A stretch of 35,152 nt of DNA from a virus: IMG/VR virus record IMGVR_UViG_3300030329_000865, positions 1 to 35,152 of that record. One strand, 5' to 3'. The position numbers and the translations under genes were made by a program. Below are positions 1,941 through 16,747 of the stretch, piece by piece (the first letter of the stretch is position 1; each line of letters opens with the position of its first letter). The notes below the pieces were generated by a model, which was given only the letters and a program-made list of their open reading frames with translations, did no database searches and was not told the DNA's origin.

Positions 1941-2060
1941 AATAAATACTAAATAGTACTTGAGATTTCTAATTTTCGTCGTTACTATGGGGTTCGTGGC
2001 GGCTAACAGCAGGAGTAGTTAAGTAATAATAATAGTATTATTTCCTACCTTGTCATTAAG

Positions 2061-2076
2061 AGGATAAAATTATCCT
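2061..2076 (+). other. Short inverted repeat
   Basis: AGGATA (2061-2066) and TATCCT (2071-2076) can pair as a hairpin with an AAAT loop, 120 nt after the large terminase stop. There is no T-run, so it is not a classical terminator. Function unknown. Confidence 0.35.
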
Positions 2077-2153
2077 ATTGGTGTATTGGGTGTAACATGA
2101 TTCCCCCTCTACGAGCCGAGATTATCTCCGCTCCGTTGTAGTTAGGTCAGCGT

Positions 2154-2182
2154 TCCCACAGGTTAGTCATTTTCCTGTGGGA
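2154..2182 (+). terminator. Strong hairpin after the terminase genes
   Basis: TCCCACAGG (2154-2162) pairs perfectly with CCTGTGGGA (2174-2182) around an 11-nt loop, giving a 9-bp stem. It is the most stable simple hairpin between the terminase genes and the early promoter and could stop terminase-operon transcription. No T-tract follows, so a terminator for the phage polymerase, an RNA-processing site or a packaging signal are equally possible. Confidence 0.35.
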
Positions 2183-2243
2183 GTAGAGTCCAAAAAATAC
2201 CACAAAAATGTAAGTGGGTATATATAAGGACAGCATCTTTGAT

Positions 2244-2258
2244 TACCCCCATGGGGTA
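2244..2258. other. Short G/C inverted repeat
   Basis: TACCCC (2244-2249) and GGGGTA (2253-2258) are complementary across CAT, at the left edge of the CTAG-repeat cluster. The symmetry could serve as a protein-binding site; it could also be chance. Confidence 0.3.
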
Positions 2259-2271
2259 CCCTAGGAAATCT

Positions 2272-2452
2272 TTGGGGCTCTTTGCAACATGCTAGGTGGT
2301 ACTATTTGGGACATACTAGGGGCTCTTTGGGATATCCTAGATTCTATCCGTGCCTGCCATTGTGGCATACTCTATATCCTGTTCTCGTGTTATGTCCCGA
2401 TAATATATTATCAGACGTTATAGGGTTTTACTTTGCGACATACTAGGGGGAA
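2272..2452 (+). repeat. Cluster of short imperfect repeats (TTTGnGACATACTAGGGG type)
   Basis: Related units occur at about 2280-2298 (TTTGCAACATGCTAGGTGG), 2304-2321 (TTTGGGACATACTAGGGG), 2327-2344 (TTTGGGATATCCTAGATT) and 2432-2450 (TTTGCGACATACTAGGGGG), with a weaker one near 2253. The undecamer ACATACTAGGG occurs again only at about 13669 that I could find. Orientation, GC-rich end and clustering in the gene-free region fit promoters for the phage RNA polymerase or replication/packaging iterons. No consensus promoter for this polymerase is known to me, so the role is inferred. Confidence 0.45.
2399..2412. other. Perfect AT-rich palindrome
   Basis: GATAATATATTATC is its own reverse complement over 14 bp. 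It lies between two CTAG-type repeats in the gene-free region. It could be an operator or an easily melted origin element; nothing further identifies it. Confidence 0.35.
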
Positions 2453-2690
2453 TTGATGTAGATTTAGCAGTCATAAGTCCTTATGGGGACAGTACTTACG
2501 TTTACGCGTAGAGGCTATTTTCAGCCCCTCTGAGCGGTTTTATACCCTACCCTTATAAGTACCCTCAGAAACTGTTTTGGAAGAAATTAGCATTTTACAG
2601 ATACCCTAACGGTCGTAAGTTCTTATGAGATAAAGAGTTACGAAAACTTTTAGAAATTTTGAAATATTTCCTATTTTCTTGTCAATTCGT

Positions 2691-2719
2691 TTGACATATC
2701 CACCGATATCAAAGATACT
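2691..2719 (+). promoter_or_regulatory. Sigma70-type early promoter
   Basis: A perfect TTGACA (2691-2696), a 17-nt spacer and GATACT (2714-2719, four of six) form the best host-type promoter in the early region. The predicted start near 2726 falls at the base of a long hairpin, and no ORF follows for 630 nt. The first product would be noncoding RNA, then the ribozyme-flanked gene and the ArdC gene. Confidence 0.65.
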
Positions 2720-2723
2720 ACTT

Positions 2724-3278
2724 CTGTCGGTCGGGATTCAAACCCCGACCAAACGACAGGCTCTCAAAAAGCCCGACCCACATCCAAGGGGCTAAGAGAG
2801 ACCTCAAGCAGGACATCCTGCGAGTCGCCTAGACTAGGCAACTAGGAGCTCTTTTAAAATTAGGTAGAATTTGAGTCTTGGCGAAACCCGTTGAAAGTAC
2901 TTACTTTAAAACATACAAGGGAATCCCTACATAGCTCTAGGCAAAGTTAAAAAATCTCTAGGATGTCCTAGAAGATAGCAATAGATACAGATAGAGCGGG
3001 GAAGTAAGGATAGGTAGGAGTGGAACGCTCCTTATGCAAACCTATGAGGATAAAGACGGTCGAGAACAAATAATAAGGCGCTAGAAAGATAGCGCTATCC
3101 CACTACAAGAAGAACAATAATCTAATTGAAGTCAAACCTAGGTCACCTAGAAAGTCCGAACATTTTAAATAGTACTCTTGTTGTGACGGTTTAGGGGAAG
3201 CCCTTTACGAGTGGGGAATTAAATTCGAAACAATCAAGGGAGATAGTAGGCACTAGAGTGCAAGTCTCCCTTATTGTC
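2724..3278 (+). ncRNA. Large structured noncoding RNA, 3' end set by ribozyme A
   Basis: About 555 nt without an ORF, between a sigma70-type promoter and the predicted cleavage site of hammerhead A at 3278/3279. Successive helices: 2724-2759 (6+6 bp with a CAAA bulge), nested 2761-2800 (CTCTC/GAGAG around AGCCC/GGGCT), 2808-2821 (GCAGG/CCTGC), 2827-2839 (GCCTA/TAGGC), 2894-2907 (AAAGT/ACTTT), 2957-2972 (TCTAGG/CCTAGA), 3010-3045 (ATAGGT/ACCTAT enclosing AGGAG/CTCCT), 3078-3095 (GCGCTA/TAGCGC), 3138-3150 (CTAGG/CCTAG) and 3193-3204 (AGGG/CCCT). Such dense pairing over a gene-free transcript suggests an ornate phage RNA comparable in size to the GOLLD and ROOL classes. I cannot assign it to either, and it may instead be an unusually long leader. 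Confidence 0.55.
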
Positions 3279-3316
3279 TACCAAGGTAGGCTCTTGGTAC
3301 TGATGATGATAGCCTA
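3226..3316 (+). ncRNA. Hammerhead ribozyme A (type II topology, pseudoknot at stem II)
   Basis: All invariant core elements are present in the right order. CGAAA is at 3226-3230. Stem III is ACAAT/ATTGT (3230-3234 with 3273-3277), extended by AAGGGAGA/TCTCCCTT (3236-3243 with 3265-3272) and capped by GCAC/GTGC. The cleavage triplet GTC is at 3276-3278, so cleavage is predicted between 3278 and 3279. Stem I is TACCAAG/CTTGGTA (3279-3285 with 3293-3299), and CTGATGA is at 3300-3306. Stems I and III are closed hairpins, so the open helix is stem II, the type II arrangement common in prokaryotes and phages. Stem II itself is at most two pairs. Instead TAGGCT in the stem I loop (3287-3292) pairs with AGCCTA (3311-3316). 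Confidence 0.87.
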
Positions 3317-3355
3317 ACAAACTACTAACAAACAAAAACCTAACGGAGAAATAAA

Positions 3356-3709
3356 ATGTTAAAGAAAGAAATGATTGAATTAATTTACGAATCAGAAAGA
3401 AGACTATGGAAAGAAGTATTGGAATGGGAAACTATAAAAGAATATGAGGAAGCTAAGGGAACTTGGTCAAAACACTCAGAGCATCTTTACCAAGCTTGTA
3501 ATTCAAGATGGAGCATAATGTGGAAATTAAGGAGGAAAACCGAGGGGAAGACAGAATATGATGGTGAACCATATAAGGTAGAGATGTCGGTAAAGCCTGA
3601 TGCGTGGAAGTTGGAGAAAATAAGAAGGACTACCGAGGGGAAATTAAACCTTGAGGATTCCTTCAAATGGCAAACGATAAAAGAAATAGAGGAGGAATTG
3701 AATATATAA
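3356..3709 (+). CDS. Unknown protein encoded between two hammerhead ribozymes
   Basis: A 117-residue, tryptophan-rich, highly charged and probably helical protein that I do not recognise. It has internal repetition: RRKTEGK (about 59-65) recurs as RRTTEGK (about 89-95), and WETIKEYEE (about 24-32) resembles WQTIKEIEE (about 105-113). This suggests a duplicated unit of about 30-80 residues. The start is supported by GGAG nine bases upstream (ACGGAGAAATAAAATG), a leader shared with the gene at 6646. The entire ORF lies inside the 495-nt segment that the flanking ribozymes would excise, so its message would carry 5'-hydroxyl and cyclic-phosphate ends or be circular. An early host-takeover role is possible by position only. 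Confidence 0.7.
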   Translation: MLKKEMIELIYESERRLWKEVLEWETIKEYEEAKGTWSKHSEHLYQACNSRWSIMWKLRRKTEGKTEYDGEPYKVEMSVKPDAWKLEKIRRTTEGKLNLEDSFKWQTIKEIEEELNI

Positions 3710-3719
3710 AAAGTAAACA

Positions 3720-3812
3720 CGAAACAATCAAGGAACACCAACAACCTACGATGGGTGAGGTGTTCCGATTGTCTACCAAGACAGGCTGAAACTTGGTACT
3801 GATGAGCAGCCT
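3720..3812 (+). ncRNA. Hammerhead ribozyme B (type II topology, pseudoknot at stem II)
   Basis: A second complete core in the same orientation. CGAAA is at 3720-3724. Stem III is ACAAT/ATTGT (3724-3728 with 3768-3772), extended by GGAACACC/GGTGTTCC (3732-3739 with 3759-3766). The GTC triplet is at 3771-3773, with cleavage predicted between 3773 and 3774. Stem I is TACCAAG/CTTGGTA (3774-3780 with 3792-3798), followed by CTGATGA (3799-3805). The distal stem III has a different sequence from ribozyme A yet pairs fully, which is strong evidence for the fold. Only one ordinary stem II pair is visible (G3806-C3720). AGGCTG of the stem I loop (3783-3788) pairs with CAGCCT (3807-3812). Cleavage would free the 5' end of the ArdC message. 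Confidence 0.88.
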
Positions 3813-3825
3813 ACAACTTTAAACT

Positions 3826-3846
3826 TAACCACCTGATGAGGTGTAA
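3826..3846 (+). promoter_or_regulatory. Leader hairpin shared with the gene at 5581 (copy 1)
   Basis: Twenty-one bases here are identical to 5543-5563. The core CACCTGATGAGGTG folds as a 5-bp hairpin with a GATG loop. Each copy ends about 17 nt before a start codon that lacks a nearby Shine-Dalgarno sequence, and the only purine-rich SD-like element (GAGGTG) is inside the hairpin. It may be a translation-control site, or a binding site for a phage protein or polymerase. Confidence 0.5.
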
Positions 3847-3863
3847 AAATACATACAATAACC

Positions 3864-4793
3864 ATGGCAACTAAAGCTAAGAAAAAGAAAGTAAACGCAT
3901 ACGAAAAAGTTACAAACCAAGTAATTAAAATGATAGAAAAAGGCATAGCACCTTGGCGCAAGACATGGAAGTCAAGCAAGTTTGATGTACCAACTAGCAT
4001 GGCAAGTGGTAAACCATACCAAGGATATAACTATCTATGGCTATCGGTAGCTAAAGCAGACAGCGGCTATACGTCGAACGTATGGGGTACTTGGAGAGCC
4101 ATCAAAAAGAATGGAGGGGTTATAGAATGGGAAGATTTTGCAGCCGAAAGACAGACCGTTACTTATTGGAATTGGATAGAGGTAGAAAAGAAAGATAGAA
4201 ACGGAGTCAAGAGAAAAGAAACTGTACCCTTTATACAATCTAGTGATGTAGTGAACCTAGACTGTGTGACTTTTCCTGACGGAATGCCTGATAAGTGGGA
4301 GACTACAGATGAGGAAGAGAATACAACACCACCGCTAGAAGTAGCAGAGGAAATAGTTAAGAAATATCTAGCCGATAACAAAGGACTACAGCTAAAGCAT
4401 GGAGGGGATAAGGCTTTCTATATGCCCTCTAGAGATACAATACAGATGCCCAAGAGAGAAAAATTCGAGGGAAATAGTGAGTATTATAGTACCCTATTCC
4501 ATGAGATGGGACATAGCACAGGACATAAAGATAGGCTAAGTCGTGAGGGAGTAACAGGGATAAACTTCTTCGGAAGCCACGAGTATTCCAAGGAGGAATT
4601 AGTCGCCGAGTTTACCGCTTGTTTCCTATGCTCTCATATTGGAATAGAAGATACGAGAGAGAACAGCGCAGCCTACCTGAAAGGGTGGGTATCTAAGCTA
4701 AAAGATAACCCAAAGATGCTGATACAAGCAAGCGGGAAAGCTAAGAAAGCAGCTGATTATATCCTAGGCAACAAGGAGGTGGAATCTAAGTAA
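3864..4793 (+). CDS. ArdC-like antirestriction protein with zincin metallopeptidase domain
   Basis: A 309-residue protein of the ArdC type. The N-terminal part (about 10-125; VNAYEKVTNQVIKMIEKGIA, then PWRKTW and GYNYLWL) matches the ArdC ssDNA-binding domain. The C-terminal part is a zinc metallopeptidase-like domain with HEMGH at 213-217 and the downstream glutamate in EELVAEF (about 244-250). ArdC proteins of plasmids and phages protect incoming DNA from restriction, so early expression makes sense. It is the first gene after ribozyme B and shares a leader hairpin with the gene at 5581. The start ATG has no adjacent Shine-Dalgarno motif. The MATKAKKKK N-terminus is very basic. An intrinsic terminator follows. 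Confidence 0.88.
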   Translation: MATKAKKKKVNAYEKVTNQVIKMIEKGIAPWRKTWKSSKFDVPTSMASGKPYQGYNYLWLSVAKADSGYTSNVWGTWRAIKKNGGVIEWEDFAAERQTVTYWNWIEVEKKDRNGVKRKETVPFIQSSDVVNLDCVTFPDGMPDKWETTDEEENTTPPLEVAEEIVKKYLADNKGLQLKHGGDKAFYMPSRDTIQMPKREKFEGNSEYYSTLFHEMGHSTGHKDRLSREGVTGINFFGSHEYSKEELVAEFTACFLCSHIGIEDTRENSAAYLKGWVSKLKDNPKMLIQASGKAKKAADYILGNKEVESK

Positions 4794-4809: not shown

Positions 4810-4837
4810 GGGGGGATACTAAGTCCCCCCAACTTTT
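4810..4837 (+). terminator. Intrinsic terminator after the ArdC gene
   Basis: GGGGGGA (4810-4816) and TCCCCCC (4824-4830) form a perfect 7-bp G/C stem with a 7-nt loop, followed by AACTTTT. It lies 17 nt after the ArdC stop and is the clearest Rho-independent terminator in the window. Confidence 0.75.
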
Positions 4838-5542: not shown

Positions 5543-5563
5543 TAACCACCTGATGAGGTGTAA
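5543..5563 (+). promoter_or_regulatory. Leader hairpin shared with the ArdC gene (copy 2)
   Basis: Identical over 21 nt to 3826-3846, including the CACCTGATGAGGTG hairpin, and placed at the same distance from its start codon. Flanking bases (CTTTTAAAC before, AATAC after) are also alike, so a whole leader seems to be duplicated in front of two unrelated genes. Confidence 0.5.
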
Positions 5564-5580
5564 CAATACTAAACAAACAA

Positions 5581-6435: not shown

Positions 6436-6473
6436 TTATTATTACTACTAATCTTATGTCTTCTCCTAACGGA

Positions 6474-6516
6474 GCAAGCCACCACGAACCCCATCGTAAT
6501 GATGCGGTGGGGGTTC
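6474..6516 (+). terminator. Hairpin after the 5581 gene
   Basis: GAACCCC (6486-6492) pairs with GGGGTTC (6510-6516); a CATC/GATG helix forms inside. It lies 50 nt after the gene stop and 40 nt before the next promoter, where a terminator is expected, but the T-run comes 20 nt later. The left part (6474-6499) is a reverse-complement match (22 of 26) to 1982-2007, so it may be a shared protein or RNA site instead. Confidence 0.45.
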
Positions 6517-16368: not shown

Positions 16369-16747
16369 ATCTATCCGCCTTCTCGGTGTGTCTATCCCCT
16401 TGATTGTTTCTAACTGTAAGTCCGAAGACCTTGAAGATGATGAAGAGGTCTTCGGCATGTGGGACGGCAACGAGATGGTGATACTACTTAACTCCGAATG
16501 CGGAGAGATACAAGAACGTACGACTTTACTGCATGAACTGCTTCATGCCATAGACGACTTCCTATATTTACAACTCAAGCACCGTGAGATATACAGTCTA
16601 AGCCAAACACTTTACCAAGTGCTTGCAGATAACCCACAGTTAGTTAGCTATCTGTTGGCAGGTTTCTCAAAAGAGAGGAATGGGGACGGCGATAGTGCAA
16701 GCAGCTATAAAACAAATAAGAGCTATAGATGCTACAAGGATAATTAA
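16355..16747 (+). CDS. Small HExxH metallopeptidase-like protein (ImmA/IrrE type)
   Basis: 130 residues from a GTG start overlapping the exonuclease by 14 nt. TTLLHELLHAIDD (about 56-68) is the HExxH zinc motif (His60, Glu61, His64). WDGNEMVILLNS (about 36-47) is the strand that typically precedes it in ImmA/IrrE-like domains. These proteins cleave repressors in mobile elements; here the substrate could be a host factor. The last 25 residues (GDGDSASSYKTNKSYRCYKDN) are low in complexity and overlap possible small ORFs in other frames, so the real protein may end earlier functionally. Confidence 0.7.
   Translation: MERPKSIRLLGVSIPLIVSNCKSEDLEDDEEVFGMWDGNEMVILLNSECGEIQERTTLLHELLHAIDDFLYLQLKHREIYSLSQTLYQVLADNPQLVSYLLAGFSKERNGDGDSASSYKTNKSYRCYKDN

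Follow-up and report, generated by a model that had tools for sequence, protein, structure and literature searches.

What do two hammerhead motifs in the same orientation, placed on either side of one small gene, do where the early region of a phage begins? The window, by which we mean the whole stretch of DNA analyzed (35,152 bases), has identical 98-nt sequences at its two ends and is thus an assembly with overlapping ends, probably complete, from a small T7-like phage. Annotation revealed a T7-like gene set, including RNA polymerase, primase-helicase, family A DNA polymerase, a gp2.5-like single-strand DNA-binding protein, a T7-type terminase, and a T7 gp13-like protein. The terminase gene stops at 1940, and the next open reading frame (ORF) of at least 60 aa begins only at 3356. 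Both hammerheads lie on the + strand, where this non-coding stretch ends and the early genes start.

The arrangement of paired hammerheads flanking a single gene was already described in 2011, and the window adds another member. Perreault et al. reported natural type II hammerheads with a pseudoknot, tandem copies flanking single prophage genes, and ardA as a neighbor, and proposed processing into single-gene mRNAs as a likely role (PMC3088659).

The intervening region (1941-3222) is approximately 1.3 kb without ORFs of at least 60 aa, between the terminase and the first early gene, and is probably the genome-end and early-promoter region. Compared to the closest relative found, contig L029 (RNA polymerase 97% identical), it shows 91% identity up to 2276 and is patchy beyond that. 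Long post-terminase gaps are likewise present in L055 and L070. An inverted repeat (26 nt, 88%) connects 1979-2043 in the non-coding region with an intergenic stretch at 6440-6502, and both parts match L029 (359-384 and 4888-4954).

Two type II hammerhead ribozymes

Ribozyme A (3223-3318, + strand) has the type II order GAAA, cleavage site, CUGAUGA. Its GAAA core segment (3227-3230) leads into a stem III hairpin (3230-3277) that was identified from the sequence and with RNAfold. In the proximal part of this hairpin, ACAAT (3230-3234) pairs with ATTGT (3273-3277); in the distal part, AAGGGAGA (3236-3243) pairs with TCTCCCTT (3265-3272) around an inner GCAC/GTGC hairpin. Local pairing probability of the stem is 0.87-0.99 in a fold of the 631-nt transcript. 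The hammerhead consensus places the predicted cut between GTC and T, after C3278 (3278/3279). Stem I (TACCAAG/CTTGGTA, loop GTAGGCT) occupies 3279-3299 and is followed by CTGATGA (3300-3306), an extra U3307, and a stem II of 2 bp, G-C then A-U, provided that U3307 is bulged out. Loop I (TAGGCT, 3287-3292) could form a pseudoknot with the tail (AGCCTA, 3311-3316) by complementarity, and the same interaction is present in L029.

Ribozyme B (3716-3815, + strand) is built in the same way. Its GAAA (3721-3724) and stem III hairpin extend to 3772, with ACAATC/GATTGT and GGAACACC/GGTGTTCC as helices by sequence and fold, and cleavage is predicted after C3773 (3773/3774). The part from 3774 to 3812 contains a stem I identical to that of A, the loop, CTGATGA (3799-3805), and a possible pseudoknot in which AGGCTG (3783-3788) is complementary to CAGCCT (3807-3812). 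Stem II of B is 1 bp. The two copies have long identical stretches in common.

All of the hammerhead elements that an earlier, sequence-only reading had assigned to this locus were recovered in order and in place. That reading had overlooked the 6-bp pseudoknots, U3307 in A, the stem II of only 1-2 bp, and ArdC as the next gene. Its view that sequence changes while structure is kept is correct only for the distal stem III helices; A and B do not differ in proximal stem III or in stem I. A comparison of A with B alone is therefore weak covariation, and the strong covariation comes from other phages.

Several lines of evidence indicate that the motifs are real. Both copies carry the core CUGANGA, GAAA, and NUH in type II order; stems I and III are loop-closed with an A15.1-U16.1 pair, stem I is at least 7 bp, and proximal stem III is 5-6 bp with a distal helix in addition. 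The pseudoknot between loop I and the tail, which is common but not universal in type II, could form with 6 bp in each copy. Infernal cmsearch found two matches to RF02276 at these two places, with 32.3 bits for A (E 5.8e-4) and 32.5 bits for B (E 5.0e-4) when all Rfam families were searched against 3.1 kb. A single-family search of the whole record gave E-values of 1.5e-6 and 1.3e-6, respectively. Both copies miss the Rfam gathering score of 37, which is a curation cut-off and not a defining chemical feature, and for this reason a default whole-window Rfam scan was empty. A type II descriptor (stem I of at least 7 bp, stem III of at least 5 bp, pseudoknot of at least 5 bp) matched once in 10.5 Mb of first-order shuffled window sequence, compared to two matches within 500 nt in the window. 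In a set of 41 type II hammerheads from phages, several pair types were seen at each of most positions in stems I and III, where pairing of these two stems formed part of the search; stem II, which the search did not require, has G-C as its first pair in 37 of them.

The possibility that A and B are chance or decayed look-alikes draws on the sub-threshold Rfam scores, the weak stem II, and the extra U in A. It would have to account for two motifs within 500 nt, each with an E-value of approximately 5e-4, as well as for the pseudoknots and the covarying homologues, and is almost certainly wrong; a chance motif was rejected on the E-values and shuffles. Insertions like U3307 are present in 12 of the 55 phage hammerheads collected, and a later survey found that insertions of 1-2 nt between CUGAnGA and the neighboring stems do occur (PMC10085705), so copy A need not be dead. 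A type II hammerhead with a 1-bp stem II and a pseudoknot was reported to be highly active, the pseudoknot is critical for fast cleavage in type II, and 14 of 18 consensus hammerheads were active (PMC3088659). We conclude that 3223-3318 and 3716-3815 are two genuine type II hammerhead ribozymes, with self-cleavage predicted from their sequences. A further candidate, a decayed type III GAAAC in the downstream leader of A, was dropped, as its alignment was no better than shuffles (81/500).

Compared to the type II class of Perreault et al. (RF02276), the window copies have the same core, cleavage triplet, block order, pseudoknot between loop I and the 3' tail, and very short stem II. They differ in their sub-cut-off Rfam scores, their long distal stem III hairpins, and the extra core-adjacent U in A. 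The clusters are also alike in their tandem copies around single small genes and in an antirestriction neighbor (ardA there, ardC in the window), whereas the earlier clusters lie in prophages and the window pair lies in the early region of a T7-like phage.

Genes following the predicted cuts

The two predicted cuts enclose exactly the 495 nt that had been calculated before, and this fragment holds the whole 117-aa ORF (3356-3709, + strand, by ORF calling), which has GGAG upstream of its start codon. No relative of the 117-aa protein was found in IMG/VR, INPHARED, Pfam, or PHROGs, so a gene-specific role was set aside, as these databases offered nothing to build on. Ribozyme B is followed by an ArdC-like antirestriction gene (3864-4793, + strand) that encodes an ArdcN domain and a zincin-like metallopeptidase (PF08401, 3.9e-23; PF18818, 1.4e-38; PHROG 7245, 1.6e-73). 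The predicted cut of A lies 77 nt ahead of the next start codon and that of B 90 nt ahead, the latter measured to the ArdC ATG, which has a weak SD. A simple SD rule skips this ATG, as it is not the first SD-supported start after B.

The sequence-only reading went further and proposed a ribozyme-ended or circular form; in the circular version, the 495-nt RNA freed by the two cuts would be closed by ligation with the 117-aa ORF inside. The locus does show one arrangement expected of hammerhead-bounded circular RNAs, two same-strand ribozymes bounding a unit. Joining the ends does rebuild a core from GAAA and stem III of B with stem I and CUGAUGA of A, and in the computed fold of the joined RNA the two hairpins form again, but every type II pair in tandem rebuilds such a core. 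Stem II of the joined A/B core would be approximately 1 bp long, and a circle would re-cleave. Circular or spliced products of such clusters were sought previously and none were detected (PMC3088659). No RNA ligase was found among the annotated window proteins, part of the protein set having been scanned. Retrozymes and viroid-like circular RNAs similarly have direct-repeat hammerheads that bound a unit-length RNA (PMC7761336), whereas the window has ordinary genes of a DNA phage and no sign of a circle, RNA replication, or copy spread. The circle, for which the support is geometric, is very unlikely, and it was not retained.

Hammerheads in other phages and their position

Hammerheads are also present in the early regions of more distantly related phages whose terminase or replication genes are similar. 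Rfam detected five in a 2.6-kb stretch of the record behind L070 (terminase 52% identical) and two in the record behind L003 (terminase 64% identical); two are present in L055 (terminase 47% identical), and the loci of L066, L083, L108, and L112/L113 contain one each. Of the cultured Autographiviridae, Rhizobium phage RHEph01 contains three and TRX32-1 contains one (Rfam, E <= 0.001 in the record), and the cultured Rhizobium phage RHEph21 contains one by descriptor. The podovirus record MW202801 has one just past ardC and a 65-aa ORF. Rfam hammerheads are absent from 13 other named Autographiviridae (W05-W17), so the feature is dispensable and patchy. With the ribozyme or the entire region as query, blastn against named phages gave nothing useful, and a type III pattern scan returned mostly chance matches, with real stems in a minority only. 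The terminators annotated beside ArdA in phage ProddE proved on inspection not to be hammerheads.

Hammerheads were found near ArdC loci in 9 of 26 cases from IMG/VR and 1 of 12 from named phages, in few lineages, and an association of the two is only suggestive. The GC-rich viral contigs L020-L026 have ArdC genes with up to three type II hammerheads each, mostly 45-60 nt ahead of small genes. Other viral contigs (L031-L040), several of them prophage-like, have one to three type II hammerheads, often two that are approximately 400 nt apart around a small gene.

In 55 non-redundant types II and III hammerheads from the fetched loci, which include related phages and are not all independent, the next start codon with an SD in front of it follows the cut after a median of 57 nt, and 49 of the cuts have such a start within 120 nt. 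For random positions on the same strand the median is 202 nt, with 34% within 120 nt, and on the opposite strand from the cut site the proportion is 16%. With spacing this tight, a function in the 5' leader is the simplest account.

In the type III hammerheads of L066, L070, L083, and L108 (and similarly L112/L113), stem II/loop II holds the SD, and GAAACAAUG, a strand of stem III, contains the start codon. The placement of SD and AUG inside the ribozyme suggests that cleavage may open the start codon. These contigs also speak for a model in which the ribozymes are switches as well, with ribosomes, antisense RNA, or A/B pairing deciding leader cutting and translation. In the window, stem I of A and stem I of B are able to cross-pair, and an exact 14-nt antisense match to GAAACAATCAAGGG of ribozyme A is present at 16397-16410, in a segment (16397-16413) inside a coding gene on the same strand. 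However, the window start codons lie at 77 and 90 nt from the cuts, outside the ribozymes, and the 14-nt match may be due to chance. We consider switching an unlikely addition to leader trimming.

Permuted hammerheads in a sister phage

L029 has two hammerheads at the equivalent site, with predicted cuts at approximately 1870 and 2558, around one gene of 188 aa. These copies have no Rfam score and are identified by descriptor alone, two matches of that quality occurring in 13.7 Mb of shuffled sequence. Stem pairing, whose loss in homologous phages the sequence-only reading had counted as refuting, is kept through compensatory changes in L029: the first copy has stem I CGTCAG/CTGACG and pseudoknot TGAGC/GCTCA. 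The second copy has one mismatch in stem I. The stem III strands ATTGT/ACAAT are common to the window and L029 and are extended in L029 to TGATTGT/ACAATCA.

The order of the parts differs. The GAAACAATCA block is located 5' of the hairpin in the window (type II), whereas in L029 it is 3' of CTGATGA/hairpin (type III). In alignments, the hairpin of A, including its inner hairpin, resembles the first L029 copy and the segment of A from stem I to the tail resembles the second, each scoring above 500 of 500 shuffles. The parts are homologous by these alignments, and the same site therefore holds circularly permuted hammerheads in two close phages. Compared to the type III architecture of L029 (RF00008), the window copies thus share the genomic site, stem III strands, inner hairpin (first copy), and loop I/tail sequence (second copy), and differ in the position of the block and in the gene between the copies. 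How type II and type III hammerheads change into one another could be studied with this pair.

The enclosed and following genes of L029 differ completely from those of the window, while the flanks are alike. This difference, together with the long identical stretches between the window copies, speaks for a reading in which the ribozymes chiefly delimit a gene cassette that can be exchanged, having spread by recombination or as mobile RNA elements, and play no part in expression. Such a function leaves the tight start-codon spacing, the compensatory changes, and the repeated use before unrelated genes unexplained, and we consider it highly improbable.

Probable leader processing of early mRNAs

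The best reading, to which we assign a probability of roughly 0.77, is that A and B, by predicted self-cleavage, each shorten the 5' leader of a single early gene and so turn one transcript into single-gene mRNAs. It is based on what could be computed, namely the motifs themselves, pseudoknots that could form, homologues and covariation in other phages, and the regular placement ahead of start codons; from these we infer cleavage, co-transcription, the end chemistry, and a benefit in stability or translation. The part of the sequence-only reading that proposed a processed early mRNA is well supported by Rfam, by the sister-phage homologues, and by the consistent position before start codons, while the circular form is unsupported. 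Precedents include a cluster around ardA that was cleaved in vivo and an early transcript of a halovirus with a mapped 5' end within 3 nt of a hammerhead cut (PMC3088659).

In this mechanism, a transcript would start in the 1.3-kb non-coding region after the terminase and pass through A and B. Each ribozyme would fold soon after its synthesis and cut co-transcriptionally at 3278/3279 and 3773/3774. The stem III hairpin, with a 2',3'-cyclic phosphate, would form the end of the upstream RNA, and the downstream mRNA would have a 5'-OH and a stem I/pseudoknot structure at its front, 77 or 90 nt before the start codon. The predicted products are an upstream RNA, a 495-nt mRNA encoding the 117-aa protein, and an mRNA that starts 90 nt before ardC.

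Several observations count against leader trimming. Both copies score under the Rfam gathering threshold, A has an extra U next to its core, the ArdC SD is weak, and the 13 named Autographiviridae manage without an Rfam hammerhead. In addition, an equilibrium fold of the whole RNA (3200-3830, 631 nt) pairs the identical, self-complementary stem I strands of A and B with each other over the ORF and not locally, so activity would depend on local co-transcriptional folding.

In T7, the early transcript is cut by RNase III between the early genes, which yields hairpin-ended mRNAs, and the first gene encodes the antirestriction protein Ocr. The outcome proposed for the window would be a host-factor-free counterpart of this punctuation. 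By analogy only, the two systems share cuts between early genes, hairpin-ended mRNAs, and antirestriction among the first genes (ArdC in the window). They differ in that the window would use a self-cleaving RNA instead of a host enzyme, with predicted 5'-OH and 2',3'-cyclic phosphate ends.

A wider generalization is tentative, and we regard it as possible rather than probable. In scattered T7-like phages, leader hammerheads may replace host RNase III as early-operon punctuation; in some of these phages, the RBS and start codon would lie within the ribozyme and cleavage would free the start; and the type II/III order could be switched at one site by circular permutation between close relatives. 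If this is true, the window and L029 are a natural record of how hammerhead permutations arise. Full-text literature searches, which covered few subscription papers, found no account of a hammerhead concentration in T7-like early leaders or of one site that is type II in one phage and type III in its sister. A defined place in T7-like early leaders, including those of the cultured phages RHEph01, RHEph21, and TRX32-1, makes cleavage and its effect on early expression testable in an ordinary infection.

Elements around ardC

A 27-nt element, TAACCACCTGATGAGGTGTAA.AATAC, with a small hairpin is present in the window at 3826-3852 and 5543-5569, just before two genes, and also in L029 at 3964-3990. 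The L029 copy retains the hairpin arms and has a different loop (CACCTGCGGAGGTG). Just after ardC, a perfect GGGGGG/CCCCCC hairpin (4810-4830) has T-rich tails on both strands and is a candidate bidirectional terminator.
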